From IMG/VR virus record IMGVR_UViG_3300017917_000746, positions 1 to 57,257 of that record: 57,257 nucleotides of DNA. The stretch is one strand, 5' to 3'. Shown here in pieces: positions 32,509-50,171 of this stretch. The notes beneath the pieces are model-generated. The model saw only the letters and a program-made list of their open reading frames with translations, did not search any database and was not told the origin of the DNA. How positions within the stretch are numbered: the first letter of the stretch is position 1; every line of letters begins with the position of its first letter. Origin of the DNA: a virus. Position numbers and translations under genes: made by a program.

Positions 32509-33324
32509 ATGGATTATTACTCAATATTAGGAATTTCAAAATCTGCAAGCCAAGACGATATAAAAAAAGCATATCGCAAATTGGCGGCTAAGCATCATCC
32601 CGACAAGGGCGGAGATACCGCAGAATTTCAAAAAGTTCAAGAAGCCTATGCTACATTAAGCGATGAACAAAAGAAAGCCGAATATGATAATCCAATGCCG
32701 CAGTTCCATTTCCATACTGGAAACATGGGCGATATGGGAGATATATTTGGTTCTATGTTTGGTGGTGCACCTTTTGGATTTCATCAACGACAAAGAAAAA
32801 ATCGAAATATCAATATTCGAGTCGAAATGACGCTGGAAGAAATTCTAGTCGGAAAAGAAGTTACAGGAACAATACGATTGCCCAGCGGAAAAGATCAAAA
32901 TATACAGATATCTATACCAGCCGGTGTAATGCATGGCGATAATATTAGATTTAGAGGATTAGGGGATGACTCCGCACCGGGGACGCCCCGTGGTGATTTA
33001 ATTGCACAGATTATTGAAATACCTCATCATAGGTTTAGAAGAGACGGAAAAAATCTTTATGCAGATTATCAAATATCCGCTTTTGATGCCATTCTTGGAA
33101 AAACTGTTAGATTTGAAACACTGGAAGGTAAAGAATTAGAGATAAAAATTCCAGCAGGCATCCAACCTGGACAATTAATTAAATGTGATAGTTACGGATT
33201 GACTTCACCGCATAATTCGCACAGAGGCACATTGTTTATTCAAATACAAGTCACTATTCCTAAAACTTTGTTTACCGAAGACCTTAGGGAAGTTGAGAGG
33301 TTAGCACAACGCTATGCATCCTAA
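32509..33324 (+). CDS. DnaJ/CbpA-like co-chaperone (no zinc finger)
   Basis: 271 residues. J domain 1-68 with YYSILGISKSASQDDIKKAY and HPD at 30-32, a short Gly/Phe/Met linker (FHFHTGNMGDMGDIFGSMFG), then the two C-terminal substrate domains (VEMTLEEILVGKEVTG, IPAGVMHGDNIRFRGLGD, GTLFIQIQVTIPKTL). The CxxCxGxG zinc region is missing, as in CbpA-type proteins. It would stimulate host DnaK. Its end overlaps def by 11 bases. Confidence 0.93.
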   Translation: MDYYSILGISKSASQDDIKKAYRKLAAKHHPDKGGDTAEFQKVQEAYATLSDEQKKAEYDNPMPQFHFHTGNMGDMGDIFGSMFGGAPFGFHQRQRKNRNINIRVEMTLEEILVGKEVTGTIRLPSGKDQNIQISIPAGVMHGDNIRFRGLGDDSAPGTPRGDLIAQIIEIPHHRFRRDGKNLYADYQISAFDAILGKTVRFETLEGKELEIKIPAGIQPGQLIKCDSYGLTSPHNSHRGTLFIQIQVTIPKTLFTEDLREVERLAQRYAS

Positions 33325-33814
33325 AGATTTTTCATTACGACTCGAAACTGATCCTATACTGTACCAAAAATTAGAAAAATATGATTTTAACTGCGGTGTA
33401 GACGCCGGTGAAATAGAAGCGTCTATGATTGCTATTATGAAAACTTTTCGAGGAATTGGTATAGCCGCAAATCAAGTTGGCTACGATAAACGTGTTATTG
33501 TTATTAAACCAAAAAATCAAGAACCCTTTGCTATGTTCAATCCGGAAATAGTAGAAAGTTCAAAATCTCGAGTAGACGAAGAAGGATGTTTAAGTTTTCC
33601 AAACTTGTATATTCCCGTTGAAAGACCAAACCAAGTTACTGTCAAATACCTTGACAAAGAACAAAAAGAATGTACAATAATACTAAATGGTTATGATGCC
33701 AAATGTGTTCAACATGAAATTGACCATTTAGACGGCATAACATTTACCAAACGTGTAAGTACATTAAAGTTAGCAATGGCATTAAAGAAAAGGAAATCAA
33801 ATGGTAGAACCTAG
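33314..33814 (+). CDS. def: Peptide deformylase
   Basis: 166 residues. All three motifs are intact: GIGIAANQ (47-54), EGCLSF with Cys92, and HEIDH with His134, Glu135 and His138. It removes the N-formyl group from new proteins and, in cyanophages, is thought to favour turnover-sensitive photosystem proteins; here no photosynthesis gene is visible. The N-terminal helix is slightly longer than in cyanophage forms. Overlaps dnaJ upstream and the clpA-like gene downstream by 14 bases. Confidence 0.95.
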   Translation: MHPKDFSLRLETDPILYQKLEKYDFNCGVDAGEIEASMIAIMKTFRGIGIAANQVGYDKRVIVIKPKNQEPFAMFNPEIVESSKSRVDEEGCLSFPNLYIPVERPNQVTVKYLDKEQKECTIILNGYDAKCVQHEIDHLDGITFTKRVSTLKLAMALKKRKSNGRT

Positions 33815-36676: not shown

Positions 36677-36684
36677 CATAAATA
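36677..36684 (+). promoter_or_regulatory. Late promoter opening the cargo block (CATAAATA)
   Basis: CATAAATA followed by CTCTATT, 19 bases before ATG 36704, with TGGAG between. It lies in the 40-base gap after the early-type operon. Confidence 0.7.
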
Positions 36685-36703
36685 CTCTATTACTGGAGTA
36701 TCT

Positions 36704-37135
36704 ATGAATATTCGCGAACTTTTAAACGCATTAGATTCTATTGTTGAAAACCCTGAAATAGGGGATCAATTTGATATAGAATTTGACGACACTATTATTG
36801 AGTCTACAATCGTCGATGTCACAGTTGACGGAGTTATTGTTCAAGTTGACGAAACTGCTGAACAGTTACTTACATCACTGGGTTGCCAACTAGAAGAAGC
36901 AGAGTACCAAGGACGAAGTGTACCTTTAGGCAAGCCCATGAAGGGCGATGTTAAAAAATCCAAAGTTTATGTAAAAGGCCCTAAAGGCAATGTAGTTAAA
37001 GTAAACTTTGGTGATAAAAAGATGCGTATTAAGAAAAGTATTCCAGGACGACGTAAGAGTTTTAGAGCAAGACATAACTGTGCAAATCCTGGGCCAAGAT
37101 GGAAAGCACGTTATTGGTCGTGCAGGGCATGGTAA
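36704..37135 (+). CDS. Putative capsid-targeted protein with basic Cys/Trp C-terminus
   Basis: 143 residues. The leader MNIRELLNALDSIVE ends in I-V-E, a possible prohead-protease site; the 44994 and 47814 genes start similarly (LQALDSIS, LDKLDNVM). Residues 16-70 are acidic. Residues about 112-143 are a basic motif (GRRKSFRARHNCANPGPRW followed by KARYWSCRAW) with two Cys that recurs in unrelated proteins of aquatic phages and large viruses and is probably a small metal- or DNA-binding unit. Role inferred: packaged with the genome. Confidence 0.72.
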   Translation: MNIRELLNALDSIVENPEIGDQFDIEFDDTIIESTIVDVTVDGVIVQVDETAEQLLTSLGCQLEEAEYQGRSVPLGKPMKGDVKKSKVYVKGPKGNVVKVNFGDKKMRIKKSIPGRRKSFRARHNCANPGPRWKARYWSCRAW

Positions 37136-37139
37136 TATT

Positions 37140-37484
37140 ATGAAAATTAAAGATCTTGACAAACAAGCAGAAAAATTTGAAGACGTTGATTGGATTGACG
37201 ATCTAAAATTTTTTATGCATAACGAACCGCGTTTTTATCGAAAATTTATATATCCAGTAATTTCTGAATTAAAAAATCGATTAGAATCTGGATCCAAATG
37301 CGACGAGATGAGTTTTGCACCTTGTATCGAAAAAGCCATACCAATCTATTGTAACAAATTTAAAATTACACAGAATCCTCAAAAATTATTTGATGATGAA
37401 AAATTACATGACCTTGCTATGAAAATGTTTCATGAAGAAAAATCAAACATTGAAAAGGGCGTGTATAAAGGGAGTGACGAATGA
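37140..37484 (+). CDS. Small helical protein of unknown function
   Basis: 114 residues from ATG 37140; the longer frame from 37008 only overlaps the preceding gene and is rejected. Helical with three Cys (ESGSKCDEMSFAPCIEKAIP, IYCNKF). The start MKIKDLDKQAEKFEDVDW has the Lys-hydrophobic opening of its neighbours but no clear cleavage site. It overlaps the nucleotidyltransferase gene as ATGA. Family not recognised. Confidence 0.65.
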   Translation: MKIKDLDKQAEKFEDVDWIDDLKFFMHNEPRFYRKFIYPVISELKNRLESGSKCDEMSFAPCIEKAIPIYCNKFKITQNPQKLFDDEKLHDLAMKMFHEEKSNIEKGVYKGSDE

Positions 37485-38335
37485 TTTTAGTAGAAGGCGG
37501 AAATGTATTTTCTGACGTAGATCCCTTTTCTAAAGAAGAAGCCAAGGAAGTCTTAGAGAAGGCTCAGGCTATGATGCCCAGCGGCATCGAATTAATCCCT
37601 GTAGGTAGTGCAGGGCATAAAGCCAGTTCAGGCGACATGGATCTAATGGTTGACGAACAGGCTATGCTAGATTATTTTAAAGTTAAGACTGCTAAGGAAG
37701 CCAGACAACGTTTAAAAACTTATTTTCAAGATCGCGGAACTGAATCTGCATTAACAGGTATCAATGTACACATTAAAGTTCCAAACGGAAATAAATTTGC
37801 ACAAGCAGACATCATGTTTGTTAAAGATGCCGGTGCTGTAAGTAAATTTCATCAACATGATTACAGTATTGAAAATACTCCCTATAAAGGATTACACAAA
37901 CATATATTACTTTCTAGTATTGCTAAAGAAACTCGCAATCAAAAATATCCGTATGGTCTCATGTGGAGCGGATTCCAAGGACTGTTTGCTCGAGATGAGA
38001 ACGGAAAAAAGGCAGACTTTGTTTCTAGTAACGCAGACGAAGTTGCTAAAATTTTAATCGGTGCTCAAGCCACTGCCGCAGACTTAGGAAATGTTGAACG
38101 AATTATTGATGCATTACCTGGCAAGGAAAAAAATCCTAAAATACAACATGCTCTATCAGACGAAAATTGGCCTGGCAACGAAGGCAAGAAACCCGAAGAT
38201 GTAAAAGAAGGGTCTTCTGAATGGTTTGCTTGGATGCAAGGTGTTGTAGAAGGAACCTACGGACGCTATTGGTGCAGTACTGATAAGCGTTGGAAAGATC
38301 GTAAAGGCCCTAAGCAGTCAAGGGGCAGTGAATGA
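37481..38335 (+). CDS. Nucleotidyltransferase-fold protein, possible capsid cargo
   Basis: 284 residues. The leader MILVE is very short, ending in L-V-E. The polymerase-beta-type fold shows in VGSAGHKASSGDMDLMVD (helix-turn GS...DxD, near 42-59) and ADIMFV (third Asp, near 108). The C-terminus has SSEWFAWMQGVVEGTYGRYW, then CSTDKRWKDRKG, another short basic Cys/Trp motif like that at the end of the gene at 36704. It could add nucleotides to RNA, DNA or protein; the substrate is unknown. ATGA overlaps on both sides. Confidence 0.75.
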   Translation: MILVEGGNVFSDVDPFSKEEAKEVLEKAQAMMPSGIELIPVGSAGHKASSGDMDLMVDEQAMLDYFKVKTAKEARQRLKTYFQDRGTESALTGINVHIKVPNGNKFAQADIMFVKDAGAVSKFHQHDYSIENTPYKGLHKHILLSSIAKETRNQKYPYGLMWSGFQGLFARDENGKKADFVSSNADEVAKILIGAQATAADLGNVERIIDALPGKEKNPKIQHALSDENWPGNEGKKPEDVKEGSSEWFAWMQGVVEGTYGRYWCSTDKRWKDRKGPKQSRGSE

Positions 38336-39483
38336 GATTAAGAGAACTATTTGTCGAGACTGTTGAAGTAGCAAAAAAGAAACTAGGCCGTGCGTTTAAT
38401 CACTTAGAAGACCTAGTGTTTTTTTACGGCACTGAAGGAACTATCGAAGCATTAGACCATCTTAAAGAAATAGCCACAGAAGAAGGATCAAAGAGTATTC
38501 GTATGAAATGGGACGGCAATCCTCAAATCTATTGGGGCAGAGAAACTGCTAATGGACCGTTGATTCTTTCAGGACATAACGGTTGGTCGCGTGGCGCTAA
38601 AACAGACAATCCAGAAGCAGTAAAAGATTTTATTGCCAATAAAAGTGGTACGCCAAAGACTCCAGAAGAAAAAGCACAGAGAGATGCCTTTGCAGAAAAA
38701 TTTGCTAATTTATATCCAGCGTTTGATGCCGCAACTCCTAAAGACTTTGTAGGATTTGTATATGCTGATGCATTATTCTTAGAAAGACCACAACTAGATA
38801 ATCAAGGAATTTATAATTTTTGCCCTAATCCTAAAAGCAAAACTTGTTATCATGTACGTGCTAGTAGTGAATTAGGCAAACGAATTAGCGGTGCAGATGT
38901 TATGGTGGTAGGTCACGCATACTTTCCAAAATTTGGTATGGACGATAGCGAACAAGAACCATTAGACGATTTTAATCAATTTAACTCAAATCCTAAATTA
39001 ATTGTTCAAGGACCTATCTATAATACAAAACCCGTAAAAATCGATACTAGTAAAATTGACAGTGTTGAACAATATTCTCAACAGCACAGTGCAGAGATAG
39101 ACGGATTCTTATCTGATACTGCGGGCCTAAGTGATCTTAAAAATATCCTGTATACCTATGTAAATCAGACAGCCAAAGCAAGACAGTTGGCCAACTTAGG
39201 TATACAGAATTTTAAAAATTGGTTACAGGCTTCTAAGGTCAGTGCAGGAAAGCAACAAAAAATACAAGAAAAAATGAATGCTCATCCTAATGCTGTTGAA
39301 TCAATGTTTTCTATGGTTAAACAAATACAAGCAGTAAAAAATGATATATTAAAACAAATCGACGGCGAGCAAGGCGATATATGGGACACTAACGGAGAAG
39401 GTCGCGTACGATATGCTGGTACTAATAAAAAGTTTGGTAATATTAAACTAGTGAACAGAGATCTGTGGACTCCCGGAGAATAA
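38332..39483 (+). CDS. DUF6267-like protein with nucleic-acid-ligase motifs, possible capsid cargo
   Basis: 383 residues. Leader MRLRELFVE ends in F-V-E. KWDG at 59-62 fits ligase motif I (KxDG, the AMP-accepting Lys59). GFVYADALF near 140-148 could be motif III. GEGRVRY near 355 and FGNIKLV near 368 fit motifs IV (EGxV) and V (KxV). Together these suggest the covalent nucleotidyltransferase (RNA/DNA ligase) superfamily, though I recall the family only as a domain of unknown function. Three Cys/His residues lie at FCPNPKSKTCYHV. It is coupled to the nucleotidyltransferase upstream by ATGA. Confidence 0.72.
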   Translation: MRLRELFVETVEVAKKKLGRAFNHLEDLVFFYGTEGTIEALDHLKEIATEEGSKSIRMKWDGNPQIYWGRETANGPLILSGHNGWSRGAKTDNPEAVKDFIANKSGTPKTPEEKAQRDAFAEKFANLYPAFDAATPKDFVGFVYADALFLERPQLDNQGIYNFCPNPKSKTCYHVRASSELGKRISGADVMVVGHAYFPKFGMDDSEQEPLDDFNQFNSNPKLIVQGPIYNTKPVKIDTSKIDSVEQYSQQHSAEIDGFLSDTAGLSDLKNILYTYVNQTAKARQLANLGIQNFKNWLQASKVSAGKQQKIQEKMNAHPNAVESMFSMVKQIQAVKNDILKQIDGEQGDIWDTNGEGRVRYAGTNKKFGNIKLVNRDLWTPGE

Positions 39484-39484
39484 A

Positions 39485-40168
39485 ATGAGATTAAGACAAT
39501 TATTTGAACAAAAAATTAATGAAGTGGCTATTATATTTGGACGCTTTAATCCTCCGCACAAGGGTCACAAAGCCGCATGGGAAACTGCGGCTACTAAAGA
39601 TATCTGGTATGTTGGCACAAATCAAAGTACAGTTGGTGCTAAGGATCCTTTGCCTTACGAAGTTAAAGTTGAATGTATGAAAGTTATTTGGCCTGAGGTT
39701 GCTAGTCATATTGTACCGGAAACTAGTTGGCTTACTTTAGCCAGTTATGTTTATCAAGAACACGGTGCCGTAAGATTAATCATCGTTACAGATGAAGCAT
39801 GGGTCGTTCCTACTGTACAAGAATACAACGGTAAATCTGGACCACACGGCGAATATAATTTCCCAGAAATTAGATTATACCACGATAGCATAGAAGAAGC
39901 AAAATTAGAACTACGTAAGAGCAGTGCCACAAGTTTACGAGATGCTGTTTCTAAAGGAGACAGACAAGGATTTAGTGATGCTGCCGGAGTCAGTTCCGAA
40001 ACGCCAGTTATGGGTAAACCATTCTTTGATTTAGTTGCTGAGTATTTGTTACCGTATCAAGAAAAAATTAAAGCCAAAGCAGATAAGGCTAAAAAGAAAG
40101 ATTCAGAAAAGAAAAAAGAAGAACCTAAAAAAGAAAAAGAATCTAAAAAAGAAAAAGAACATGGATGA
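39485..40168 (+). CDS. NadR/NadM-like cytidylyltransferase-fold enzyme, possible capsid cargo
   Basis: 227 residues. Leader MRLRQLFEQKINE offers two sites (L-F-E and I-N-E) before the core strand VAIIFGRFNPPHKGHKAAWE, which holds the HxGH adenylyl-transfer motif. KSSATSLRDAV near 142 is the second signature (usually ISSTxxR). This fold makes NAD from NMN and ATP, or similar nucleotide conjugates. The last 30 residues are a nearly pure Lys/Glu tail (KAKKKDSEKKKEEPKKEKE), unusual for the family. Starts one base after the ligase-like gene. Confidence 0.8.
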   Translation: MRLRQLFEQKINEVAIIFGRFNPPHKGHKAAWETAATKDIWYVGTNQSTVGAKDPLPYEVKVECMKVIWPEVASHIVPETSWLTLASYVYQEHGAVRLIIVTDEAWVVPTVQEYNGKSGPHGEYNFPEIRLYHDSIEEAKLELRKSSATSLRDAVSKGDRQGFSDAAGVSSETPVMGKPFFDLVAEYLLPYQEKIKAKADKAKKKDSEKKKEEPKKEKESKKEKEHG

Positions 40169-40379
40169 ACTAGCTCAAATTAAACGCCTAGCCGGTATTA
40201 CAGAATTTAAAGGTTACCAGCCGTATGGTGGTAGCAATATCAGTATCACTGGTATGGAAAAAAGAGAGTTAGAACGTAAACACAATATTAAACCAGGAAC
40301 AGACGAATGGTTCCAACTATGGTTTAGTAAACCTTACTTAACAGGTGAACCACCGGTAGGAAAAAATGAGAGCAAGTGA
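40161..40379 (+). CDS. Small protein with RLAGI motif
   Basis: 72 residues from ATG 40161, overlapping the preceding gene by 8 bases; the frame further upstream reads only the Lys/Glu tail out of frame. It begins MDELAQIKRLAGITEFKG. The QIKRLAGI element resembles the C-termini of two cargo proteins (LKFLSGL at 44992 and MRQIAGLR at 47612), so it may be a shared scaffold-binding peptide. The rest (ELERKHNIKPGTDEWFQLWF) is a short helical domain of unknown role. Confidence 0.65.
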   Translation: MDELAQIKRLAGITEFKGYQPYGGSNISITGMEKRELERKHNIKPGTDEWFQLWFSKPYLTGEPPVGKNESK

Positions 40380-42213
40380 TTTTATCAACGAAAGACCAAA
40401 ACGTGTCCTAACTATATTTGATATAGACGATACGCTGTTTCACACCACTGCTAAGATTAACGTAGTAAAAGACGGTAAAGTAGTACGCTCTCTAACCAAT
40501 CAAGAATTCAATAACTACGAATTACAAGACGGTGAAGAATACGACTTTGGCGAATTTCGTAATGCTGAAAAATTCCGTCAAGAAAGCGAGCCTATTGGCC
40601 CTATGCTTGACGAGTTAAAAACTATTTTAGATCATACACAGGGCAAAGTTATAATGCTAACTGCTCGTGCAGATTTTGATGACAAAGAAACATTTCTACA
40701 AACGTTTGCCGATCATGGCATAGACATGAGTAAGATTCATGTTCATCGTGCAGGAAACTTGCCCGGGAAAGAAGGCCCTGCTGAAAAGAAAGCAGTATGG
40801 GTTAGACGTTATCTAGACACAGGAAAATTTAATCAAGTAAGTTTATATGACGATTCAATGAGCAACTTACGTGTGTTTAAATCATTGGAGCAAGAATATC
40901 CAGATGTAAAGTTTGATGCATATCATATCACCGGAGAAGGTGATGTTAAATCTTTAGAAGAACGTAAAAAGAAAAAACGCAAATCTAAACGTGTCTATGG
41001 TGCGGCCTGGGGTCCTGGACCTTATGGTTTATATGGATGGGACTCAGGGTACAGCAGTGCAGCCGGAGTATCTTCTGGAGAAGTTGGAGGAGGCGACGGC
41101 GGTGGAATGGAAAGTCGCCTTAATGAAGCATGGACTCAGGATAAACAACAGCGTATTAAAGATTTTGCATTATGGGCTATTAAACTTTTAGAAATAGAAC
41201 AAGCACCAAAGATTAAATTAGTTGCTGATAGTGGCACTACAGCATTGGGGTATTTTGATCCTGAAACACAGAACATTGTTGTTACAGTTAAAGATAGGCA
41301 TCAGATGGACATTATGCGAACACTGGCACACGAACTAGTGCATCGCAAACAAAACGAAGCACGTGAACTTGATGGTGCTACAGGCAGTGATGACGAAAAC
41401 GAAGCCAATGCACTTGCAGGTGTGTTATTACGTTGGTGGGGTAGAAAAAATCCTGAACAATTTAACGAAGCATGGAGCGCAAAATATAAACGTAGTATTA
41501 ACTGTAATAATCCTAAAGGATTCAGTCAACGTGCTCATTGTCAAGGACGTAAAAAAGAAGATATTAACACAGAAACAAATAAGTTAATTCCTTATCCTAA
41601 AGGTACAGTCAAAGTAGATGTAGATGACGTCTATGACTGGTATAAGTTAGGTATGAATATCAGCGATCTAGACGATGCTGATCCTGAAGACTTTGGTAAA
41701 GGTCCTCCACAAACTGTATTATCATTTGGCAGTGAACCTATTGAACACAAATACATGAAGGCACTACAACGTCTAAAAATGAAAACACATGATTTAGATG
41801 AATTTGCTCCTAGCAACGATGACAGTGGCGATGAAGATATGTTGTTCAAGTATGCTAAAATGTGGTACAACAACGATACAGATGTGCAGGAAAAGATTGA
41901 AAAAATATTAGACCAAGAAGGTTGGGAAATAGGCGAAATAGAATCTGAGGAAGGCGGAGTGTTTGTTGTTCAATCTGGAGACGAAAACGGCAATTCATAT
42001 ATTGGCTGGCCAGAGGCAGAATTAACTAATATCGATGAAAACTTTGCTGATGGTCGCAATCCACAAGACAAAGGTGATAGTAAGCGCCATGGCATTACTA
42101 AAGGTATGAGTATTGCACAACTTAAAAAAATTCGCAGTAGCAAAACAGCAAGTCCACGTAAAAAACAATTAGCGCATTGGCAAATTAACATGCGTCAAGG
42201 AAAGAAAAAATGA
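40366..42213 (+). CDS. Multi-domain cargo polyprotein: HAD phosphatase, zincin metallopeptidase, basic modules
   Basis: 615 residues. Leader MRASDFINE is followed directly by a HAD domain (LTIFDIDDTLFHTT; MLTAR motif II; LYDDSMSN motif IV; 12-185). A KKKKRKSKR patch and Gly-rich linker lead to a zincin domain with HELVH (322-326) and ENEANALAG, likely a metallopeptidase. Then come AWSAKYKRSINCNNPKGFSQ (369-388), an acidic domain (about 400-555), and a basic tail (NPQDKGDSKRHGITKGM...). Hydrophobic-x-E occurs at Glu9, Glu254, Glu368 and Glu558, each at a domain boundary, as expected for processing by a gp21-like protease. Confidence 0.8.
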   Translation: MRASDFINERPKRVLTIFDIDDTLFHTTAKINVVKDGKVVRSLTNQEFNNYELQDGEEYDFGEFRNAEKFRQESEPIGPMLDELKTILDHTQGKVIMLTARADFDDKETFLQTFADHGIDMSKIHVHRAGNLPGKEGPAEKKAVWVRRYLDTGKFNQVSLYDDSMSNLRVFKSLEQEYPDVKFDAYHITGEGDVKSLEERKKKKRKSKRVYGAAWGPGPYGLYGWDSGYSSAAGVSSGEVGGGDGGGMESRLNEAWTQDKQQRIKDFALWAIKLLEIEQAPKIKLVADSGTTALGYFDPETQNIVVTVKDRHQMDIMRTLAHELVHRKQNEARELDGATGSDDENEANALAGVLLRWWGRKNPEQFNEAWSAKYKRSINCNNPKGFSQRAHCQGRKKEDINTETNKLIPYPKGTVKVDVDDVYDWYKLGMNISDLDDADPEDFGKGPPQTVLSFGSEPIEHKYMKALQRLKMKTHDLDEFAPSNDDSGDEDMLFKYAKMWYNNDTDVQEKIEKILDQEGWEIGEIESEEGGVFVVQSGDENGNSYIGWPEAELTNIDENFADGRNPQDKGDSKRHGITKGMSIAQLKKIRSSKTASPRKKQLAHWQINMRQGKKK

Positions 42214-42935
42214 AAATAGATGATTTACTAGAAGGTACTATTAACATGATGGAGTTGGCAAAGAAGGCCAAAGCATTATTAGAGCAAGGACTTTCTGAAC
42301 AACAAGCACAAGATAAACTTGTAAAAGATGGTATTCCCGCTAGACTTGCCGCACAAGCAGTACAAATGGCACAGATGCAGGAAACTGTTGCTGATCAACT
42401 TACCGATGGATTTACTCAAGCACATGCTGATGCTAAACGTGCTAAACAAGAAAAACTATCAGCAGAAAAATATGAAAAAAGTCTAGCAGGTCAATATAAA
42501 TTACCCTGTCAGCCTATGGATTCTTATGTAGTAGATTCAACAAACAAACCTATTGTTCGATGCGCGAATCCTAATCATTCGATTGAAGTATCCGTTGCTC
42601 TTAATCAGTATATCTCAAAAGCAAAACGAGTAGACGAAACACCCATCGCCTCTACAGATGATCCTATGGATCCTATGATTCACGGACATGAAAAAGCCAA
42701 CCCTATGCGCCTTAAAGATCGTATTAATCAAACTAGACGTCAACTTAAAGAACTAGCACAGATGGCAGAAAGTGATGATTTTTCTACCTGGATACAAATA
42801 TGTAAATTAGCCAAGGGCGGAATGTTTATGGGTTTAGAACAAAATTTAGAACAAGTAAGACATGGACTAGAAGAACTGGCTAAAAAACGTAGTAAGGGCG
42901 GAGCACAAAGTAGAGGCATTGAAAAATTTGATTAA
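42210..42935 (+). CDS. Helical protein of unknown function, possible capsid cargo
   Basis: 241 residues. Leader MKIDDLLE ends in L-L-E. A helical region with LLEQGLSEQQAQDKLVKDGI resembles a UBA-like or scaffold helix pair; the middle has a Cys pair (LPCQPMDSY, VRCANPNHS) and the end is helical and basic (GLEELAKKRSKGGAQSRGIE). ATGA overlap with the polyprotein gene. No enzymatic motif seen. Confidence 0.68.
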   Translation: MKIDDLLEGTINMMELAKKAKALLEQGLSEQQAQDKLVKDGIPARLAAQAVQMAQMQETVADQLTDGFTQAHADAKRAKQEKLSAEKYEKSLAGQYKLPCQPMDSYVVDSTNKPIVRCANPNHSIEVSVALNQYISKAKRVDETPIASTDDPMDPMIHGHEKANPMRLKDRINQTRRQLKELAQMAESDDFSTWIQICKLAKGGMFMGLEQNLEQVRHGLEELAKKRSKGGAQSRGIEKFD

Positions 42936-42945
42936 CAATAGATCA

Positions 42946-42953
42946 AATAAATA
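42946..42953 (+). promoter_or_regulatory. Late promoter (AATAAATA)
   Basis: AATAAATA, 20 bases before ATG 42974, with AAGGACG as ribosome-binding site. Confidence 0.65.
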
Positions 42954-42973
42954 TTGTTAAGGACGAAAATATT

Positions 42974-43642
42974 ATGAGAATTATAGACATTATTACCGAA
43001 GCCAAGCAGCCACAAGCACCTAAGCCTCGAAACTTTGTTGCTAAGAATGCCAAGACGGGCGGTGCTGGCGCACACAAGGATAAAAAGAAAGCCGAAAAAC
43101 AAGGCGATGTAAAACATAAAGGCAAAGTTGAGATGGACGAATCTTTTGGACGAAGAAGCAGTTATAGTTATAATCCAGACAGAGACGCAGAACGCGAATG
43201 GGACGCGGCTCGACGTGCAGATCAAGACTTTAGAAATCGAGAGCGTAATGCGGGAGACGATGGCGAAGATTACTATCGTCAGCAGATGGACAAAGATCGA
43301 GGTCCTTGGTACATAAAAATTGACGGTAAAATTTACAAGCAAAAAGGCATTCCAAAATCATTTGATTGGAAAAGCGGTGCTAAAAAGTACGGAATGGCTA
43401 TTCTTAAAAATAATCCAGATCTGCAGGGTAAAATTTATATTACTAAAAAAGCAAAAGACGATGCTCCAAACAACATTACAGAAGACCCTAGTGCTAGTAC
43501 AACTAACGCTGGAAATGTAACAATCGGTGCAATCTATAAAAATAAAGCAGGAAAAACTCCTAAAAATAAGGACGGCACTGCTAAAAATGCTCTAGACATG
43601 AAGGGTGTTGGATTGCTTACCGGCGGAAGCATAAAACGATAA
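42974..43642 (+). CDS. Basic modular protein, possible capsid cargo
   Basis: 222 residues. Leader MRIIDIITE ends in I-T-E. Residues about 18-52 (RNFVAKNAKTGGAGAHKDKK, KQGDVKHKGK) form a very basic motif that I recall from many T4-like phage proteins. An Arg/Asp-rich segment with RDAEREWDAARRADQDFRNR follows. A small domain, WYIKIDGKIYKQKGIPKSFD near 115-140, resembles a short beta unit in other phage proteins. Likely DNA-associated inside the head; function unknown. Confidence 0.7.
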   Translation: MRIIDIITEAKQPQAPKPRNFVAKNAKTGGAGAHKDKKKAEKQGDVKHKGKVEMDESFGRRSSYSYNPDRDAEREWDAARRADQDFRNRERNAGDDGEDYYRQQMDKDRGPWYIKIDGKIYKQKGIPKSFDWKSGAKKYGMAILKNNPDLQGKIYITKKAKDDAPNNITEDPSASTTNAGNVTIGAIYKNKAGKTPKNKDGTAKNALDMKGVGLLTGGSIKR

Positions 43643-43645
43643 ATA
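43638..43645 (+). promoter_or_regulatory. Late promoter (GATAAATA) overlapping a stop codon
   Basis: GATAAATA contains the TAA stop of the preceding gene and lies 21 bases before ATG 43667, with AGGAGAT between. Confidence 0.7.
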
Positions 43646-43666
43646 CCATATTAGGAGATTTTAACC

Positions 43667-44992
43667 ATGCACGACGAAATGAGACCAGCGATGCCAGGAC
43701 CCATAGATGACCACGAAGGTTCTATGGCACGTTCTGAGCTTTACAGAGCCGCAAAATATTCAATGAAACTATTTCAAATGATTGAAGACGGACAGGATTT
43801 AGAAGGCTGGGTGCAGGCTAAAATTACTAAATCAGCAGATTATTTAGATTCTGTGTATCATTACATGGAATACCAGGTAAAGTTTGGCGATGGCAGCAAC
43901 GCATCCAACATCGACGATATCACAGGTGATGCTGAACAAGAGCTACCAAGCGATGAACCAGTATCCGATATGGATGACGAGGAAAGGAAAATTGACGAAA
44001 TGACCACATACGAACAAAAATTACAATCATTATTAGAAGGTGCCATTAAAGCATCCGGTGTACGTGCTACAGATAAAAAGAAAGGCAAAGTAGATAAATC
44101 AGAGCGCAAACAATACTTTGTTAAACTTGAAAAAGACAACAAGACTAAAGGTATGACTATTGTTGCAGACGAAGGCGAAAGTCAAGGCGAATTACGCGAT
44201 CGTGTTAAACGTGACAACATTGGTTGGACCGTAGCCAGTATGCGTGTCAAAGACGAAATTGACGAAGCCGCTGAAAAAATTGCCAAGGCAGAAAAAGATG
44301 CTAAGAACAAGAAAGAAAAAGACAAAATGATTAAGGAAGCTCTTACTCAGGTTGTTGAAAAGGCTGTTAGCAAAGCACAACAAAAGTTTATGGGTATGGT
44401 ACACGCCGCTAAGAAAGGCGAGAAGCCAGCAAGTAAAGAAGTTGCTAAAGCCGCTAAAGGTATGAGCAAGAAGTCTGCCGAAGACTTTGCTAGTACAAAA
44501 CACAAAGGTCTTCCAGAGAAGAAAAAGAAAACTGACGAAGCACAGGTAATGAGCCCACCGGATGGTGCAACTGCTCCTCCGCCAAAAGATCCAAAGACTG
44601 GCAAGTATCCTAAAGTAACTTCTGGTCCTAACAAAGGTAAAGAGTGGAGTGAAAAGACTCCAGGTCCTACAAATCCAGCAATGAAGGAAGGTAGCAAGCC
44701 AGACTTTTTAGACATGGACAAAGATGGTGACAAGAAAGAACCAATGAAAAAAGCAGTTTCCGACAAAAAGAAAGGTGCTGTTAAAGAAGATCAAGATTTA
44801 GTTAAAAGCATTGTTAGAAAAGTTGTTGCTGAAAAGAAAGCAGGCAAAGGTAAGCCAGATTTTTTAGATATGGATAAGGATGGCAACAAAAAAGAAACAA
44901 TGAAACAAGCAATTAAAGATAAAGAAACAAAGAAAGAAACTGTTAAAGAGTCTGCTGATTTATCTCGCTTGAAATTCTTATCAGGACTATAA
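43667..44992 (+). CDS. Lys-rich modular protein with two DxDxDG repeats
   Basis: 441 residues. The N-terminal domain (MARSELYRAAKYSMKLFQMI, EGWVQAKITKSADYLDSVYH) is a helical unit that I recall from related phage proteins. After MTTYEQKLQSLLE, a possible internal hydrophobic-x-E site, come basic coiled regions (KIAKAEKDAKNKKEKDKMIK). KPDFLDMDKDGDKKEPMKKA (about 345-364) and KPDFLDMDKDGNKKETMKQA (about 395-414) are near-identical EF-hand-like or dockerin-like loops. It ends LSRLKFLSGL. It has no obvious N-terminal targeting leader. Probably an internal head or DNA-compaction protein. Confidence 0.7.
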   Translation: MHDEMRPAMPGPIDDHEGSMARSELYRAAKYSMKLFQMIEDGQDLEGWVQAKITKSADYLDSVYHYMEYQVKFGDGSNASNIDDITGDAEQELPSDEPVSDMDDEERKIDEMTTYEQKLQSLLEGAIKASGVRATDKKKGKVDKSERKQYFVKLEKDNKTKGMTIVADEGESQGELRDRVKRDNIGWTVASMRVKDEIDEAAEKIAKAEKDAKNKKEKDKMIKEALTQVVEKAVSKAQQKFMGMVHAAKKGEKPASKEVAKAAKGMSKKSAEDFASTKHKGLPEKKKKTDEAQVMSPPDGATAPPPKDPKTGKYPKVTSGPNKGKEWSEKTPGPTNPAMKEGSKPDFLDMDKDGDKKEPMKKAVSDKKKGAVKEDQDLVKSIVRKVVAEKKAGKGKPDFLDMDKDGNKKETMKQAIKDKETKKETVKESADLSRLKFLSGL

Positions 44993-44993
44993 T

Positions 44994-45563
44994 ATGGATC
45001 TTAGACAAATTCTACAGGCGTTAGACAGCATTTCTACAAAACCTGTAGAAAATGTCGTAGCGGAAGAACAAGTTCCGCCAATGCCCGATGTAAGTGATCT
45101 ACAACCTGGAACTTCAAAAGACGGAGAAGAAGGATCTAGAATTACTAAAAATGCAGACGGCACCGTATCATATGCAGGAGCATGGGGCACTTATGTTTAT
45201 AATGCACAAGGACAACATGTTAAAACTGTAAGTCCTACTTTTGCTGGATACTCACAAACATCTGATCCTACAGGTAAAGTAACTCAACAAACATACAATC
45301 AAGGACCTCTAAATGTTAAACGAGGACCAGAAGGCGATGAAGTTGAATACGATCTTGGAACTACTACCCTAAGTGCAAAAGGACCTACTGGTGCTAAACC
45401 AACACAAGTGGCTGTTAGAGAAATGGGGTTTAAAGATTACTTGCAACAAATTGAAGAAGGGCTAAAGGATCCTAAAGATAATCCATGTTGGAAGGGTTAC
45501 AAGCCAGTTGGTACTAAAAAGAAAGGTGGCCGCACAGTTCCTAACTGTGTACCAAAAGAATAA
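44994..45563 (+). CDS. Possible capsid cargo protein with NPCWKGY basic C-terminus
   Basis: 189 residues starting one base after the previous stop. The leader MDLRQILQALDSIS parallels the 36704 and 47814 starts, though the nearest cleavage-like site (VVAEE) is less typical. The middle carries two short beta repeats (ADGTVSYAGAWGTYVYN, GEVEYDLGTTT-like). The C-terminus, after QQIEE, is GLKDPKDNPCWKGYKPVGTK and KKGGRTVPNCVPK, a two-Cys basic motif shared by aquatic phage proteins. It overlaps the lipoprotein gene as TAATG. Confidence 0.68.
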   Translation: MDLRQILQALDSISTKPVENVVAEEQVPPMPDVSDLQPGTSKDGEEGSRITKNADGTVSYAGAWGTYVYNAQGQHVKTVSPTFAGYSQTSDPTGKVTQQTYNQGPLNVKRGPEGDEVEYDLGTTTLSAKGPTGAKPTQVAVREMGFKDYLQQIEEGLKDPKDNPCWKGYKPVGTKKKGGRTVPNCVPKE

Positions 45564-45949
45564 TGCGAGCCCTTGTCTTAGCACTAGCACTAACATTAAC
45601 AGGTTGCGCTACTGTTAAGGAATGGGTTCCTAGTTTCAGTGATCCTAATCAATCCGCACGTATTATCGATGTGCGTCAAAGTGTTCAGCAATTAGATTGC
45701 AAACAAACACATGCTCCCCAGGTTAAGCGCATCAAAGACAATTTAGATTGGTTTCAACTTTACAGCGACAGCAAAGGTTGGAGACAGAACGATGTTCTTA
45801 AGTTAATTAAACCTATGCAAGAAACCGTCGACGATTTTTATAAACGTAGCAACGAAAAACAGGGTAGCGAAACCTACTGCGAAATTAAAAAGAAATTAAT
45901 GACTACCCAATCTGAAAAAGCCGCTAGTGCTATATTGGGGAGATTCTAA
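45563..45949 (+). CDS. Small lipoprotein
   Basis: 128 residues. Signal peptide MRALVLALALTLTGC with lipobox Cys15, then a soluble helical region with two further Cys (LDCKQTHAPQVKRIKDNLDW, SETYCEIKKKL). It is anchored in the host envelope after late expression, so unlike its neighbours it cannot be a head protein. A role in superinfection exclusion or lysis is possible but unproven. TAATG overlap upstream; the last base is shared with the next ATG. Confidence 0.72.
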   Translation: MRALVLALALTLTGCATVKEWVPSFSDPNQSARIIDVRQSVQQLDCKQTHAPQVKRIKDNLDWFQLYSDSKGWRQNDVLKLIKPMQETVDDFYKRSNEKQGSETYCEIKKKLMTTQSEKAASAILGRF

Positions 45950-46182
45950 TGATTGAACAGTTACAACAGTTAACGCAGTGCGGTCGTCCTTGGGCTTCCG
46001 ATAGAGCTACAATGGCTTTACAGATGTGCGAAGCCTTTCAACAAGGACAGATCAGCAACGATGAATTTAAAGAATTAATGTTAGATCTAGTTAGAACAGA
46101 TAAATTAGACAGTGAAGCCGATGACATAAATTTAAAAACTATGTTAGTAACGGCAGTATACGCAGTAGCACAGGTGGCCTAA
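45949..46182 (+). CDS. Small helical protein of unknown function
   Basis: 77 residues, helical (ASDRATMALQMCEAFQQGQI, NDEFKELMLDLVRTDKLDSE). It begins on the last base of the lipoprotein stop and ends one base before the Dps gene, so it is co-expressed with both. Family not recognised. Confidence 0.65.
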   Translation: MIEQLQQLTQCGRPWASDRATMALQMCEAFQQGQISNDEFKELMLDLVRTDKLDSEADDINLKTMLVTAVYAVAQVA

Positions 46183-46617
46183 ATGGAAGAACTTAGTAAA
46201 GCACTTAAAATAGCATTTGCCAGTGAATTTAGTTTTTATCTAAAAGCTCATTATTTTCATTGGAACGTTGAAGGAATAAATTTTCAGCAATTTCACGAAC
46301 TGTTTGGTGGTATCTACGAAGAAGTCTATGACAGTATAGATGACTTTGCAGAAAACATTCGTAAGACTGGCAGTTATACTCCTGGAAGTTTTGAACGTTT
46401 TACTATGTTGTCAAAGATTGACGATGAAACAGAAATTCCTAATGCAGAAACAATGGCACAGATCCTGTTAGAAGATTCTGATAAAATGGCTGAGATTTTT
46501 AGAATGGTTTTTGCTATTTCTGAAAAATATGGTGAGCACGGACTTAGCGATTTTATTGCAGGTCGTCAAGATGCACATCGCAAACATTCATGGATGCTAA
46601 GGGCTACATTAAAATGA
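46183..46617 (+). CDS. dps: Dps/ferritin-like iron-binding protein
   Basis: 144 residues, four-helix Dps family. The ferroxidase ligands are all present with exact spacing: His26, His38, Asp53 and Glu57 match E. coli Dps His51, His63, Asp78 and Glu82 (12, 15 and 4 residues apart), in YFHWNVEGINFQQFHELFGG and SIDDFAENI. Dps oxidises and stores iron and protects DNA from Fenton damage. The Lys-rich N-terminal DNA-binding tail of E. coli Dps is absent. It lies in the late block among cargo proteins, with no targeting leader of its own. Confidence 0.9.
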   Translation: MEELSKALKIAFASEFSFYLKAHYFHWNVEGINFQQFHELFGGIYEEVYDSIDDFAENIRKTGSYTPGSFERFTMLSKIDDETEIPNAETMAQILLEDSDKMAEIFRMVFAISEKYGEHGLSDFIAGRQDAHRKHSWMLRATLK

Positions 46618-46769
46618 AAGATATAACCTTAGCAGACTATATTAAAAGAACTACAGAAGAATTAAAAAAAGATTTATTGGATTCGACACAGGCCGAGGAA
46701 AAATACCTAGTCTATCCAGAACAACACGGTGAGGAAGATCGGCCAGTAAACCCATACGGAGAACATTAA
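46614..46769 (+). CDS. 51-residue protein of unknown function
   Basis: Starts in an ATGA overlap with dps and ends directly before ATG 46770. The sequence MKDITLADYIKRTTEELKKD, then QAEEKYLVYPEQHGEEDRPV, is acidic and helical. The tight overlap on both sides supports it as a real gene. No family recognised. Confidence 0.6.
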   Translation: MKDITLADYIKRTTEELKKDLLDSTQAEEKYLVYPEQHGEEDRPVNPYGEH

Positions 46770-47615
46770 ATGAAAATTTCAGATATATTAATCAACGAGG
46801 CACCGGCCGCAACAGGTAAAGTTCCTCCTCAACCAACATTAAAGGGCAAACCATCTACTGGTCCAAAAGGTCAAGCATGGTTGAAAAAATACGGTGCTAC
46901 TCATAATCCAGACGGCACACCAAAGTCAGCGCCTGCACCGGCACAGGTAGCACCACAACAGGGCAATGGGCTCACGGGTCAAAATGCTCCCGGAGTTGCC
47001 CCGGAAGTAGGTGTAGCACAGGCATCCAGCAACACCACTCCAGATCCTGTTCCAGCACAAGAACCAACACCGGCACCTGCTCCAGCACCTACTACACCCC
47101 CACCACAGGCAAATCCACTAGGAGTACAAGCACAGGCTGGCGGTGCGTTTGGACAACAAACTCCACAGGCGGATGTTAGTCGCGCACCAACTGAGCCAGC
47201 ACCTGCTCCTGCAGAACCTGCTCCGGCATCTGCTCCTGCAACAAAACAAGCACCTCCAGGACTATCCAGTGCAACAACAGCCCAAGGTTCTTCGGCACCA
47301 ACTGGACCAACAGCCCAAGCCAATCCTGACGGAACTGGTATTGGTGCTAATGCTCAGGTCAATCCAGATACTAATTTAAGCACACAGGCTAAACCAGTTA
47401 CAACTGCCTCAGGGGCGAAAACTAATATAACTACTGCGTCTGACGACGAGTTGGCTTGGAGATCTAAACAAACCGGGATGGTAAATTTCAGTGCGTATCC
47501 AGGGCCCGGTAAATGGGATCCAAAAACTGGACGTACAAAACGTGAAAGCATCGAATATCACGAAAGAGACAATCAGTTATTACAACGTATGCGTCAAATT
47601 GCTGGTTTGAGATGA
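46770..47615 (+). CDS. Pro/Ala/Gln-rich protein, possible capsid cargo
   Basis: 281 residues. Leader MKISDILINE ends in I-N-E, very like the T4 internal-protein leader. GPKGQAWLKKYGATHNPDGT near 31-50 is a motif repeated in other phage cargo. Residues about 55-225 are disordered, with PAPAPTTPPPQAN and similar runs. The end has SGAKTNITTASDDELAWRSK, then RERDNQ-like helix and MRQIAGLR. Intrinsically disordered proteins can be threaded through a tail tube. No catalytic motif. Confidence 0.7.
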   Translation: MKISDILINEAPAATGKVPPQPTLKGKPSTGPKGQAWLKKYGATHNPDGTPKSAPAPAQVAPQQGNGLTGQNAPGVAPEVGVAQASSNTTPDPVPAQEPTPAPAPAPTTPPPQANPLGVQAQAGGAFGQQTPQADVSRAPTEPAPAPAEPAPASAPATKQAPPGLSSATTAQGSSAPTGPTAQANPDGTGIGANAQVNPDTNLSTQAKPVTTASGAKTNITTASDDELAWRSKQTGMVNFSAYPGPGKWDPKTGRTKRESIEYHERDNQLLQRMRQIAGLR

Positions 47616-47770
47616 AAGAATTTTTAGATAATTTTATAGAATGTTTAGCCCGCTTTGGTTGTGGGTTAGGTGGTATTCCGTATGAATTATGAGAACATAC
47701 CCTAGGACCGTTTGGGGTTATGTGGCCGGCTGCTGGCCTAATCAACGGATTCGCTACCCTGAAGATTTAA
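47612..47770 (+). pseudogene. Small membrane-like frame interrupted by an in-frame TGA
   Basis: ATG 47612 overlaps the preceding stop (ATGA) and encodes MKEFLDNFIECLARFGCGLG, then GIPYEL and TGA (47690-47692). The same frame continues without gap as EHTLGPFGVMWPAAGLINGF and ATLKI to TAA at 47768-47770. The two halves together read like one 53-residue amphipathic protein, so TGA may be a nonsense mutation or a readthrough site. Alternatively ATG 47689 (ATGA overlap) starts another frame of 28 residues, MRTYPRTVWGYVAGCWPNQR..., to 47775. Neither reading is proven. Confidence 0.45.
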
Positions 47771-47780
47771 AGTGAGCACT

Positions 47781-47788
47781 GATAAATA
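47781..47788 (+). promoter_or_regulatory. Late promoter (GATAAATA)
   Basis: GATAAATA followed by TTATATAAG, 25 bases before ATG 47814, with TGGGGAT between. Confidence 0.68.
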
Positions 47789-47813
47789 TTATATAAGATT
47801 TTGGGGATCATAA

Positions 47814-50171
47814 ATGGATATTAGATCAATATTAGATAAACTAGATAATGTAATGCTCAGCGAAGCAATTACATTACAAGACGTCGAGGCTGCTGTTGCT
47901 GGTAAAAAAGACGAACAAGAACGTGCAGGCATACTTAATGACCTAGCATGGAAACATAAACTACCTGGACTATACGATCCTGTTAGCGGAGGATTTGTTG
48001 GTAAACAAAGCATGCCAGTAGGTGGCGCTATGGGCGGTCGATATAGTATTGCTGCCACCGGTAGTGAACGATCAGACAGAGCATTGGCAGATATGGGTTT
48101 AATTCCTGATAATGCAAAAACTTCCACAGCACTAGGAAGAGCGTTTAGAGGAGACGATAAAGGTCAATACGACCAAGATCTTAGAACTAGAAGTCAAGGT
48201 GCTGTTGCCCAACAAAAATATGAAAAATTTAAAACAGAAAATCTTCCAAAATTAAAAGATCTAGCATCACAGTTAAGCGCCGCTGTAGAAAAATTTAAAA
48301 CAGCAGGTCCCGACACAAGTTCAAGTGGCGGCTATTTTGGTCTTGATGCATCTAAATATAAACGTGAATCAAAAATTTACGAGTCATTAATGAATGAATT
48401 TCAAGACGAAATCTTGGACATTGATTTAGAAGAAGTAGCAGTTGAACCAGGTAACGAAGAGATTAAAAAATTAATTGATCAACTTAACAGTATAATTGCA
48501 CAATTTGACGGTCAATCTGAATTTTTAAAACGTGATCCTGATACACAAAAAGAACTCAACGCAATAAGACCACAGATTGCAGATGCTGTTAATGCTGTTA
48601 AAGCCGCACAAGAAAAAGCCAAAGCAGATGCAGAAAAGGCTAAAGCAGATGCTGAAAAGAAAACTAATACTACTATACCAGGAAATCAAGATCCTACAAA
48701 AGGAAAAGTTGATTTTAGTTTAACTAAGCCTGAGCCTGAGAAAAAATTTCCAGCAGATTACAACAAAGACGGATCTCAAAAATCTAAAGAAGAAAGATTG
48801 GCTAGAGCAAAAGAATTACTGGCTAAGGCTAATCAGCCTAAAGTTGAAAGCGTTCAGCCTGAGAGTATGAGCGAACTAATGGCTCGTATACAACGCATTG
48901 CCGAAGGTACAACAATCAATGAACAATTAACCGCGGCTGAATATAAAGAATTACAAACTATCGCCGCAGGATTAAAACAAGAGTTTGGTGATGATCCTGA
49001 AATTTTAAGTTTGACGAATCGTGCTCTTAACCTTCCGGCAGTTTGGAAGTCAGACGAAAAACCAAGTACAACTACAACTACCACAACTGACCCAGACAAG
49101 AAACCAGATGACAAGAAACCCGACGATAAGAAAACAGGAGTTGCTGATCCTAAAGTACAAAAAGTTCAAGAACAACTTAAAGCATTAGGTGTAGATCCAG
49201 GTCCTATTGACGGGCGCATGGGTCCAAAAACTATTGCAGGTATCAAGGCATTTGAAAAATTAGCAGGTGTTCCTGAAACAGGAAAAATTACTCCAGAATT
49301 AGAAAAACTATTAGCAGACGGTAAAAACGTAATTGCTCGTAGCAAACTAACACAATCATTAACTGCTATCGAAGCACTAATGACCAAATACAAAATTTCT
49401 GAATCTGTAACTGTAGAAGATTTAGAAACAATGACCGAAGATGAACTTCGTGCTTTTGTAATGGCTAATATTAAAATGTTTACAGAAGCAGAACAAATGT
49501 CTATCATGAAACAGTTTATTACTGAATCTGAAAGATTAGACGAAAAATTTGTTAACGGTAAATTTTATCCAGATACTGCACAAGATACAAAACCAAGACG
49601 TAGTGCTACAGGTAATGTTGATTTACCTAAAGACTTTGGCAAACAGCCAGTTGATAGTAAAGGTAATCCAATTAGACCGGATTATATGGGGTCACAAGGA
49701 AAGACCGGTACAGCACCTACACCCGGACCGACACCTACACCTGCGCCTGGTCCAACACCTACACCGGCGCCAGGACCCGATGGAAAGGCAAGTTGGTTAG
49801 ATCGAGGAAAAGCATTAATTAGTAAAATTGCCGATAAGACCAAAGCGGCTGCTATGCGAAATCCAAGAGTAGCGGCTGGTGTGGCTATTCTGTCTACTGC
49901 GGCTGCTGGATTTGGTATCAGTAAATTCATAGACTGGATCAAAGGCGGCGACATTAAAATGGATCCAGCCGATCTTGCTGAACTACAAAAACATTTAAAA
50001 GTTCTTGAGGAATTTGGTAAGAATCCAGAAGTGGTTAAAGGTTTGCCGGCAGACGTTCAAAAACGTTTAGAAAGTGTATTAGGCAAATTAAACAAGTTGC
50101 AGAAAGTTCAGGCAACTGCGCCTGCCCAAACAGCAAACAGCGGTCAAGTAAGCAACACGCCAGCCGCTTAA
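47814..50171 (+). CDS. Large capsid-targeted protein with peptidoglycan-binding domain and membrane helix
   Basis: 785 residues. The leader MDIRSILDKLDNVMLSE ends in L-S-E. Next are helical and acidic regions. Residues about 446-505 are a PG_binding_1 domain (PKVQKVQEQLKALGVDPGPI, then GRMGPKTIAGIKAFEKLAG). A Pro/Thr linker (GPTPTPAPGPTPTPAPG) and a hydrophobic helix near 682-706 (RVAAGVAILSTAAAGFGISK) follow. Further hydrophobic-x-E sites (TTINE, RLDE) lie between domains. If ejected it could bind the cell wall and insert in the membrane, helping DNA entry. A terminator follows. Confidence 0.78.
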   Translation: MDIRSILDKLDNVMLSEAITLQDVEAAVAGKKDEQERAGILNDLAWKHKLPGLYDPVSGGFVGKQSMPVGGAMGGRYSIAATGSERSDRALADMGLIPDNAKTSTALGRAFRGDDKGQYDQDLRTRSQGAVAQQKYEKFKTENLPKLKDLASQLSAAVEKFKTAGPDTSSSGGYFGLDASKYKRESKIYESLMNEFQDEILDIDLEEVAVEPGNEEIKKLIDQLNSIIAQFDGQSEFLKRDPDTQKELNAIRPQIADAVNAVKAAQEKAKADAEKAKADAEKKTNTTIPGNQDPTKGKVDFSLTKPEPEKKFPADYNKDGSQKSKEERLARAKELLAKANQPKVESVQPESMSELMARIQRIAEGTTINEQLTAAEYKELQTIAAGLKQEFGDDPEILSLTNRALNLPAVWKSDEKPSTTTTTTTDPDKKPDDKKPDDKKTGVADPKVQKVQEQLKALGVDPGPIDGRMGPKTIAGIKAFEKLAGVPETGKITPELEKLLADGKNVIARSKLTQSLTAIEALMTKYKISESVTVEDLETMTEDELRAFVMANIKMFTEAEQMSIMKQFITESERLDEKFVNGKFYPDTAQDTKPRRSATGNVDLPKDFGKQPVDSKGNPIRPDYMGSQGKTGTAPTPGPTPTPAPGPTPTPAPGPDGKASWLDRGKALISKIADKTKAAAMRNPRVAAGVAILSTAAAGFGISKFIDWIKGGDIKMDPADLAELQKHLKVLEEFGKNPEVVKGLPADVQKRLESVLGKLNKLQKVQATAPAQTANSGQVSNTPAA

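Follow-up and report, generated by a model that had tools for sequence, protein, structure and literature searches.

A gene block with short T4-type leaders in an environmental phage probably encodes an enlarged, modular set of internal virion proteins

The 57,257-base linear IMG/VR virus record IMGVR_UViG_3300017917_000746 (the window, i.e. the whole stretch of DNA analysed) carries at positions 36704 to 50171 a block of genes, ten of whose proteins had been reported in a preliminary description as sharing a capsid-targeting-like leader. The block of leaders is genuine and not random, and we consider it quite probable that it represents an expanded and more modular form of the internal-protein cargo set of phage T4. 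The DNA belongs to a large environmental phage related to T4, whose DNA polymerase comes closest (43-50% identity) to those of jumbo myoviruses such as Agrobacterium phage Atu_ph07, Sinorhizobium phage Phosso and the Rak2-like phages. The close relatives that were found are all environmental contigs, of at most 270 kb, and the assembly consists of the same 57-kb fragment alone.

All ten N-termini are present in the sequence at the genes named (proteins are denoted here by the first position of their gene, and a slash marks a cut site, known or predicted). In nine of them the short N-terminal leader ends with a hydrophobic residue, any residue and Glu (hydrophobic-x-Glu); two to three of the ten are weak or without a conserved Glu. 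The exception is 44994, which has no LxE within the first 17 residues. For 39485 the cut had been placed after INE, at position 13, which is not conserved; the conserved site is E8 (MRLRQLFE/). The T4 leader used for comparison is that of IPII and IPIII (MKTYQEFIAE/A), and the bodies behind the common leader are indeed unrelated, belonging to distinct folds and families, with modules that swap behind leaders. Proteins 36704, 44994 and 47814 have leaders of another type (type 2), M(D/N)(I/L)R-x-(I/L)L-x-x-LD. The leader is absent from about six block genes (37140-37484, 40161, 43667, 45563, 45949 and 46183). In both structure models the leaders coincide with stretches of low confidence, which are probably flexible. 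The block comprises the following features.

36704..37135, + strand: block gene with leader type 2 (MNIRELLNALDSIVE/) and a C-terminal RKSFxARHxCAN module (sequence, orthologues)
37481..37495, + strand: leader MILVE/ of the nucleotidyltransferase (18/24 orthologues)
37481..38335, + strand: predicted Pol-beta/Pol X-fold nucleotidyltransferase (AlphaFold2 model, Foldseek)
38332..38358, + strand: leader MRLRELFVE/ (E9 invariant in 18 aligned sequences; 44/46 N-termini)
38332..39483, + strand: DUF6267 protein with a KxDG motif (PF19782, E 1.3e-16)
39485..39508, + strand: leader MRLRQLFE/, corrected boundary (30/30 orthologues; LFE at residue 8 conserved)
39485..40168, + strand: cytidylyltransferase-like (NMNAT/NadR type) enzyme (phrog_3041, E 5.6e-16)
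40161-40379, peptide 40179..40199, + strand: gene of the 40161 family with a scaffold-like N-terminal IKRLAGI peptide (motif)
40366..42213, + strand: probable polyprotein with leader MRASDFINE/ and HAD, metallopeptidase-like, WSxKYK and NFADG modules (profiles, modules)
42210..42935, + strand: leader MKIDDLLE/ and a small protein (orthologue in relative G002)
42974..43642, + strand: leader MRIIDIITE/ and a KPRNFVAKNA protein (6/7 orthologue N-termini)
43667..44992, + strand: leaderless gene with KPDFLDMDxDG modules and a C-terminal LKFLSGL at 44969-44989 (module common to S-CREM2 gp111)
44994..45563, + strand: leader type 2 and an NPCWKGYKxxG..NCVPKE module (common to S-CREM2 gp160 and the Melnitz fusion)
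46770..47615, + strand: leader MKISDILINE/ and a C-terminal MRQIAGLR at 47589-47612 (motifs)
47814..50171, + strand: leader MDIRSILDKLDNVMLSE/ and a peptidoglycan-binding domain protein (PF01471, E 1.4e-11; boundary kept in relatives)

The loose form of the pattern, [LIVFM]xE at any of residues 5-17, says little and cannot bear the argument, being found in about a quarter of genes (~26% of the Atu_ph07 genes outside the virion clusters). The narrow form, M(K/R) with [LIVFM]xE and Glu at positions 7-12, occurs in 6/16 block genes versus 0/45 in the rest of the window (p=1.4e-4), a figure that is descriptive, since the pattern was picked after the window was seen and the window p-values are therefore optimistic. 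The motif search suggested in the preliminary description also found enrichment at N-termini in the window and three relatives (30/679 versus 37/2978 for internal Met, p=6e-7). The orthologue, junction and S-CREM2 tests given below lean less on this post-hoc choice. Outside the block, a gene at 28243-28809 has a late promoter and starts with MHDILDIIE/N, and the Glu pattern is seen in 6 of its 12 relatives.

Orthologue N-termini were taken from 80 environmental loci and from long contigs, with start codons set automatically from the ribosome-binding site, the presence of ATG and proximity; these starts are approximate, and single cases may be wrong. Among distinct N-termini, the hydrophobic-x-Glu leader is kept in 30/30 for 39485, 44/46 for 38332, 6/7 for 42974 and 18/24 for 37481. 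Conservation of at least 60% is reached by 4/12 block families versus 0/15 non-block window families (families with enough data, Fisher p=0.028). The cut-site Glu is conserved in these four and not in 40366; the other families have too few orthologues, with 36704 keeping the pattern weakly (2/7) and 46770 having no detectable relative in the collection. Leaders are exchanged in front of constant bodies: the orthologues of 38332 carry MRLRELFVE/, MRANEFLRE/, MRAFEFLKE/ or MRLRQLFKE/ before the same body (E9 invariant in the 18-sequence alignment), and that of 42210 in G002 has another leader, MRLIDIINE/G, and an unchanged mature start. Relatives of 47814 read VVLSE/AITLQDV, VVLAE/AITIKDV and YLTE/AITMADV, i.e. 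the leader length is variable and the LxE/AIT boundary constant. Most orthologues of 37481 read MILLE/GGNVF, and two relatives are leaderless at the same boundary (M/GGNVF and M/GGKVF).

Protein 40366 holds a WSxKYK..GFSQ and an NFADG module, each of which relatives carry as a separate leader-bearing gene (MRANEFITE/AWSQKYK and MRAKEIFE/NFADG). Glu stands at the boundary before the WSxKYK module in 20/20 and before the NFADG module in 11/11 distinct contexts, stand-alone or fused, many of these contexts being related and the independent number smaller (about six to nine each, counted by eye). The sequences upstream of the boundary Glu are often unrelated between contexts. The junctions in 40366 look as internal cut sites of fused cargo would, and the predicted sites are as follows.

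41119..41127, + strand: predicted internal cut site RLNE/AWTQ in 40366 (pattern only)
41461..41469, + strand: predicted internal cut site QFNE/AWSAKYK in 40366 (Glu in 20/20 contexts)
42031..42039, + strand: predicted internal cut site NIDE/NFADG in 40366 (Glu in 11/11 contexts)

Fusion is also seen in the Methylophilales phage Melnitz, where a 650-residue protein with the leader MKKFSEIIE/A joins homologues of 39485 (E 1.5e-15), the 44994 module (E 5e-11) and, at its own residues 509-631, 36704 (E 2e-18).

The published virion proteome of cyanophage S-CREM2 (PMC10665884, Table 3) offers a comparison from another phage. A narrow form of the leader is present in 6/52 virion proteins and in 1/167 of those that were not detected (p=8e-4); the pattern used for the window, which is a little broader, gives 6/52 and 3/167 (p=0.006). 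The leader-bearing virion proteins include a cytidylyltransferase (MKNFSSFLTE/A), an S-adenosylmethionine (SAM) hydrolase (MKDFDSFLEE/) and a kinase (MKRFDAFLTE/); that paper makes no mention of leaders or targeting. In blastp searches of the block proteins against the S-CREM2 proteome only three matches were obtained, all of them virion proteins: gp154, the homologue of the 39485 cytidylyltransferase; gp111, which has a module in common with 43667 (E 2e-5); and gp160, which has the 44994 module. A viral-contig scan with the S-CREM2 enzyme gave one locus. Packaging and cleavage of the block proteins are likely. The virion-detected S-CREM2 gp12 (L129, 7704-10313) has a leader-like LRFASFMAE/A at residue 25, and its Cas9-like annotation looks doubtful. 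In Atu_ph07, 14/155 proteins of the three virion-protein clusters (ranges as published in PMC6102473) have leaders versus 14/707 elsewhere, mostly from one paralogous tandem array, and blastp of the block proteins against this phage gave no match. The array (L119, 39484-49507) consists of about ten genes starting with M(R/K)W(E/H/D/N/Q)(Q/D)L(T/N/I)E, inside a virion-rich cluster.

The leaders could be real and yet only part of the ten proteins packaged, with 40366, 44994 and 36704 as ordinary late proteins whose N-termini match the leader by chance or ancestry. Such a partial set, compatible with the cargo reading, has a substantial chance of being correct, if somewhat short of even. It is favoured by the non-conserved Glu of 40366, the missing LxE of 44994 and the low count for 36704; on the other hand, the leader-bearing Melnitz protein includes the modules of both 44994 and 36704, and that of 44994 occurs in an S-CREM2 virion protein.

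A degenerate motif, NATAAATA(C/T), derived from the matches themselves and close to the T4 late promoter, is found ten times in the window, always on the coding strand and just upstream of gene starts (10/10 at 6-24 nucleotides before the start, expected 3%). Four sites precede block genes, and others precede probable tail genes. As a search motif, the exact T4 late promoter TATAAATA gave two matches, fewer than chance, and the degenerate form is the informative one. From its placement, NATAAATA(C/T) appears to mark the late genes of the lineage, and late expression of the block is predicted.

36677..36685, + strand: putative late promoter CATAAATAC (18 nucleotides before the first block gene)
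42946..42954, + strand: putative late promoter AATAAATAT (window motif)
43638..43646, + strand: putative late promoter GATAAATAC (window motif)
47781..47789, + strand: putative late promoter GATAAATAT (window motif)

The relatives have a prohead set of T4 type, with a gp21-type protease, a gp22-type scaffold and a capsid protein whose prodomain ends in hydrophobic-x-Glu. Protease genes were found in 3/6 of the long relatives' contigs, beside the portal, scaffold and capsid genes, and one protease-bearing relative is 80% identical to the window in the 38332 protein. The capsid prodomain ends, placed by comparison with T4, read YLSE/S, LME/N (Atu_ph07), MLRE/S (CBB) and LLTE/A (S-CREM2).

The scaffold proteins of the relatives (e.g. 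L083) end in ...DIRRLAGLK or ...NDLKRLAGIKK. The motif (L/I)(K/R)xL(A/S)G(L/I) also ends unrelated proteins, several of them leader-bearing (46770, the 37481 orthologues, L045, L054), and it stands at the start of the 40161 family. A count over 1,907 distinct proteins gave 18 occurrences at the C-terminal end and 16 near the N-terminus versus 23 in 380,615 internal residues. This terminal peptide is possibly a second docking tag. More tentatively, with the odds somewhat against it, the cargo could be a two-tag modular system. The cleavable leader and the separate terminal peptide would then each bring proteins to the prohead core, and fused cargo would be delivered as a polyprotein that is split within the head into a kit for repair and nucleotide metabolism. 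Less probable is that the leader-bearing proteins are prohead core components, docked and cut like gp67, gp68 and IPIII to build the head, and not delivered as enzymes. Such a role agrees with the similar hydrophobic-x-Glu termini that open the lineage's scaffold and capsid proteins, with the terminal LAG peptide that the scaffold has in common with several cargo proteins, and with the influence of T4 IPIII on head assembly (PMC9026906). It is made unlikely by the catalytic folds and motifs retained in the mature parts (HxGH of the cytidylyltransferase, Pol X fold) and by the homologues seen in S-CREM2 virions. Chance, given that phage genes often encode Lys/Arg-rich, hydrophobic N-termini with a Glu close by and the loose pattern is frequent, is highly improbable and conflicts with what the orthologue and junction tests show, with the narrow pattern at 0/45 outside the block, four conserved families and Glu at 31/31 module junctions. 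An N-degron for the neighbouring ClpA-like gene is also not favoured, the residues after the cut being mostly A, S, K, T, G or N. That gene lies, with DnaJ-like and peptide deformylase (PF01327) genes, at 32509-36041, shortly 5' of the block.

In respect to the enzyme names given in the preliminary description, those of two proteins stand. The cytidylyltransferase assignment of 39485 holds on its profile match, and a Pol-beta-type nucleotidyltransferase fold holds for the model of 37481 (predicted local distance difference test score, pLDDT, 78.7, with residues 1-6 below 50), whose best Foldseek match is DNA polymerase lambda (E 2.6e-6, probability 1.00); 37481 has no match among 50,697 phage records. 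Its orthologues end in one of three interchangeable tails, ELQRIKQLSGL, GTNEWFRHMLDKV and YGRYWCSTDKRWK..PKQSRG. The 'ligase-like' name of 38332 comes down to the KxDG motif: a ligase is plausible, though unproven, and a fold search with ligases on top (E 0.1, probability 0.28) was not accepted. The polynucleotide-kinase/HAD and metallopeptidase (zincin) profile matches of 40366 are weak. PDB profile searches with three enzyme families gave no match. The leaderless block gene at 46183-46617 encodes a Dps/ferritin-like protein (PF00210, E 1.5e-19), and the listed TTG open reading frame 37008-37484 probably starts at 37140 (MKIKDLDKQ...), in agreement with the relatives.

In the cargo reading, the block proteins would be made late from T4-type late promoters and docked by their 5-17-residue leaders to the assembling prohead core (scaffold). 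A gp21-type prohead protease would then cut after hydrophobic-x-Glu and release the mature proteins, while some cargo would be fused and probably cut internally at like sites. The mature proteins would remain in the head and leave with the DNA at ejection, serving at entry probably in nucleic-acid repair and in nucleotide and nicotinamide adenine dinucleotide (NAD) metabolism (Pol X-fold nucleotidyltransferase, cytidylyltransferase, possibly also a ligase and an HAD phosphatase). Of these steps we infer docking, cutting, ejection and the enzyme roles. The earlier claim of a capsid-targeting leader cut by a gp21-type protease finds good support in the relatives, the promoters, the module junctions and the S-CREM2 virion proteomics, less so for the weak leaders among the ten.

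Several observations weigh against the cargo reading. No gp21-type (S77) prohead protease gene was found on the 57-kb fragment; such genes are known from the three relatives. Protein 40366 reads INE here, VKD or IKD in its two nearest relatives and has no Glu in others; this loss is ambiguous and may mean uncut cargo, because in T4 an Asp at the cut position permits targeting and blocks cutting (PMC9026906). Leaderless homologues exist, namely the cytidylyltransferases of GAP32 and S-RSM4 and cyanophage relatives of DUF6267. Contamination of the S-CREM2 virion proteome is not excludable according to its authors (PMC10665884), and several of its non-structural virion proteins have no leader. 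Almost no CBB virion protein in the stretch examined is leader-bearing, so the leader is not general in the CBB group.

The closest known systems are T4 IPI-III and Alt, with a short M-K/R...hydrophobic-x-Glu/A leader on unrelated bodies and gp21 processing; the prohead set of the relatives and the late promoters of the window are likewise of T4 type. In contrast to T4, the block has more cargo types, several of them enzyme-like, some fused with internal cut-like sites; its leaders are more varied (LFE, ITE, the second LD type), and the scaffold-like terminal LAG peptide is absent from the three T4 internal proteins compared. S-CREM2 virions contain the cytidylyltransferase, gp156, which is nucleotidyltransferase-like, and both the NCVP and the KPDFLDMD module; leaders of the form MK-x-F..FL-x-E are seen on three of the virion enzymes, namely the cytidylyltransferase, the SAM hydrolase and the kinase. 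Many phiKZ and SPN3US head proteins are also cut after Glu and ejected, but their motif is S/A-x-E, their propeptides are mostly long (>100 residues), and no gp22-type scaffold is confirmed (PMC5694885); the conserved boundaries of the window have L, I, F or V at the S/A place, and the leaders have 5-17 residues. P1 DarB and the polyvalent injected proteins resemble the block in being enzymes packaged via an N-terminal signal and in their multidomain cargo, whereas no consensus leader was found among the Dar proteins and gp21-type leader cutting is not described (PMC9024508). The idea that capsid-targeting sequences load varied proteins in T4-like phages is already published (PMC9026906); the new parts are the enzyme-rich cargo, the fused cargo and the scaffold-like tail. 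No paper on such a leader in cyanophages or jumbo relatives was found in the open-licence literature.

If the cargo reading is true, virion cargo would be predictable from sequence in T4-related phages, including many uncultured ones, and the presence of enzymes such as cytidylyltransferases in cyanophage virions would be accounted for. The leaders would be usable to load chosen proteins into large phage heads, and what large phages inject at entry would become directly testable.

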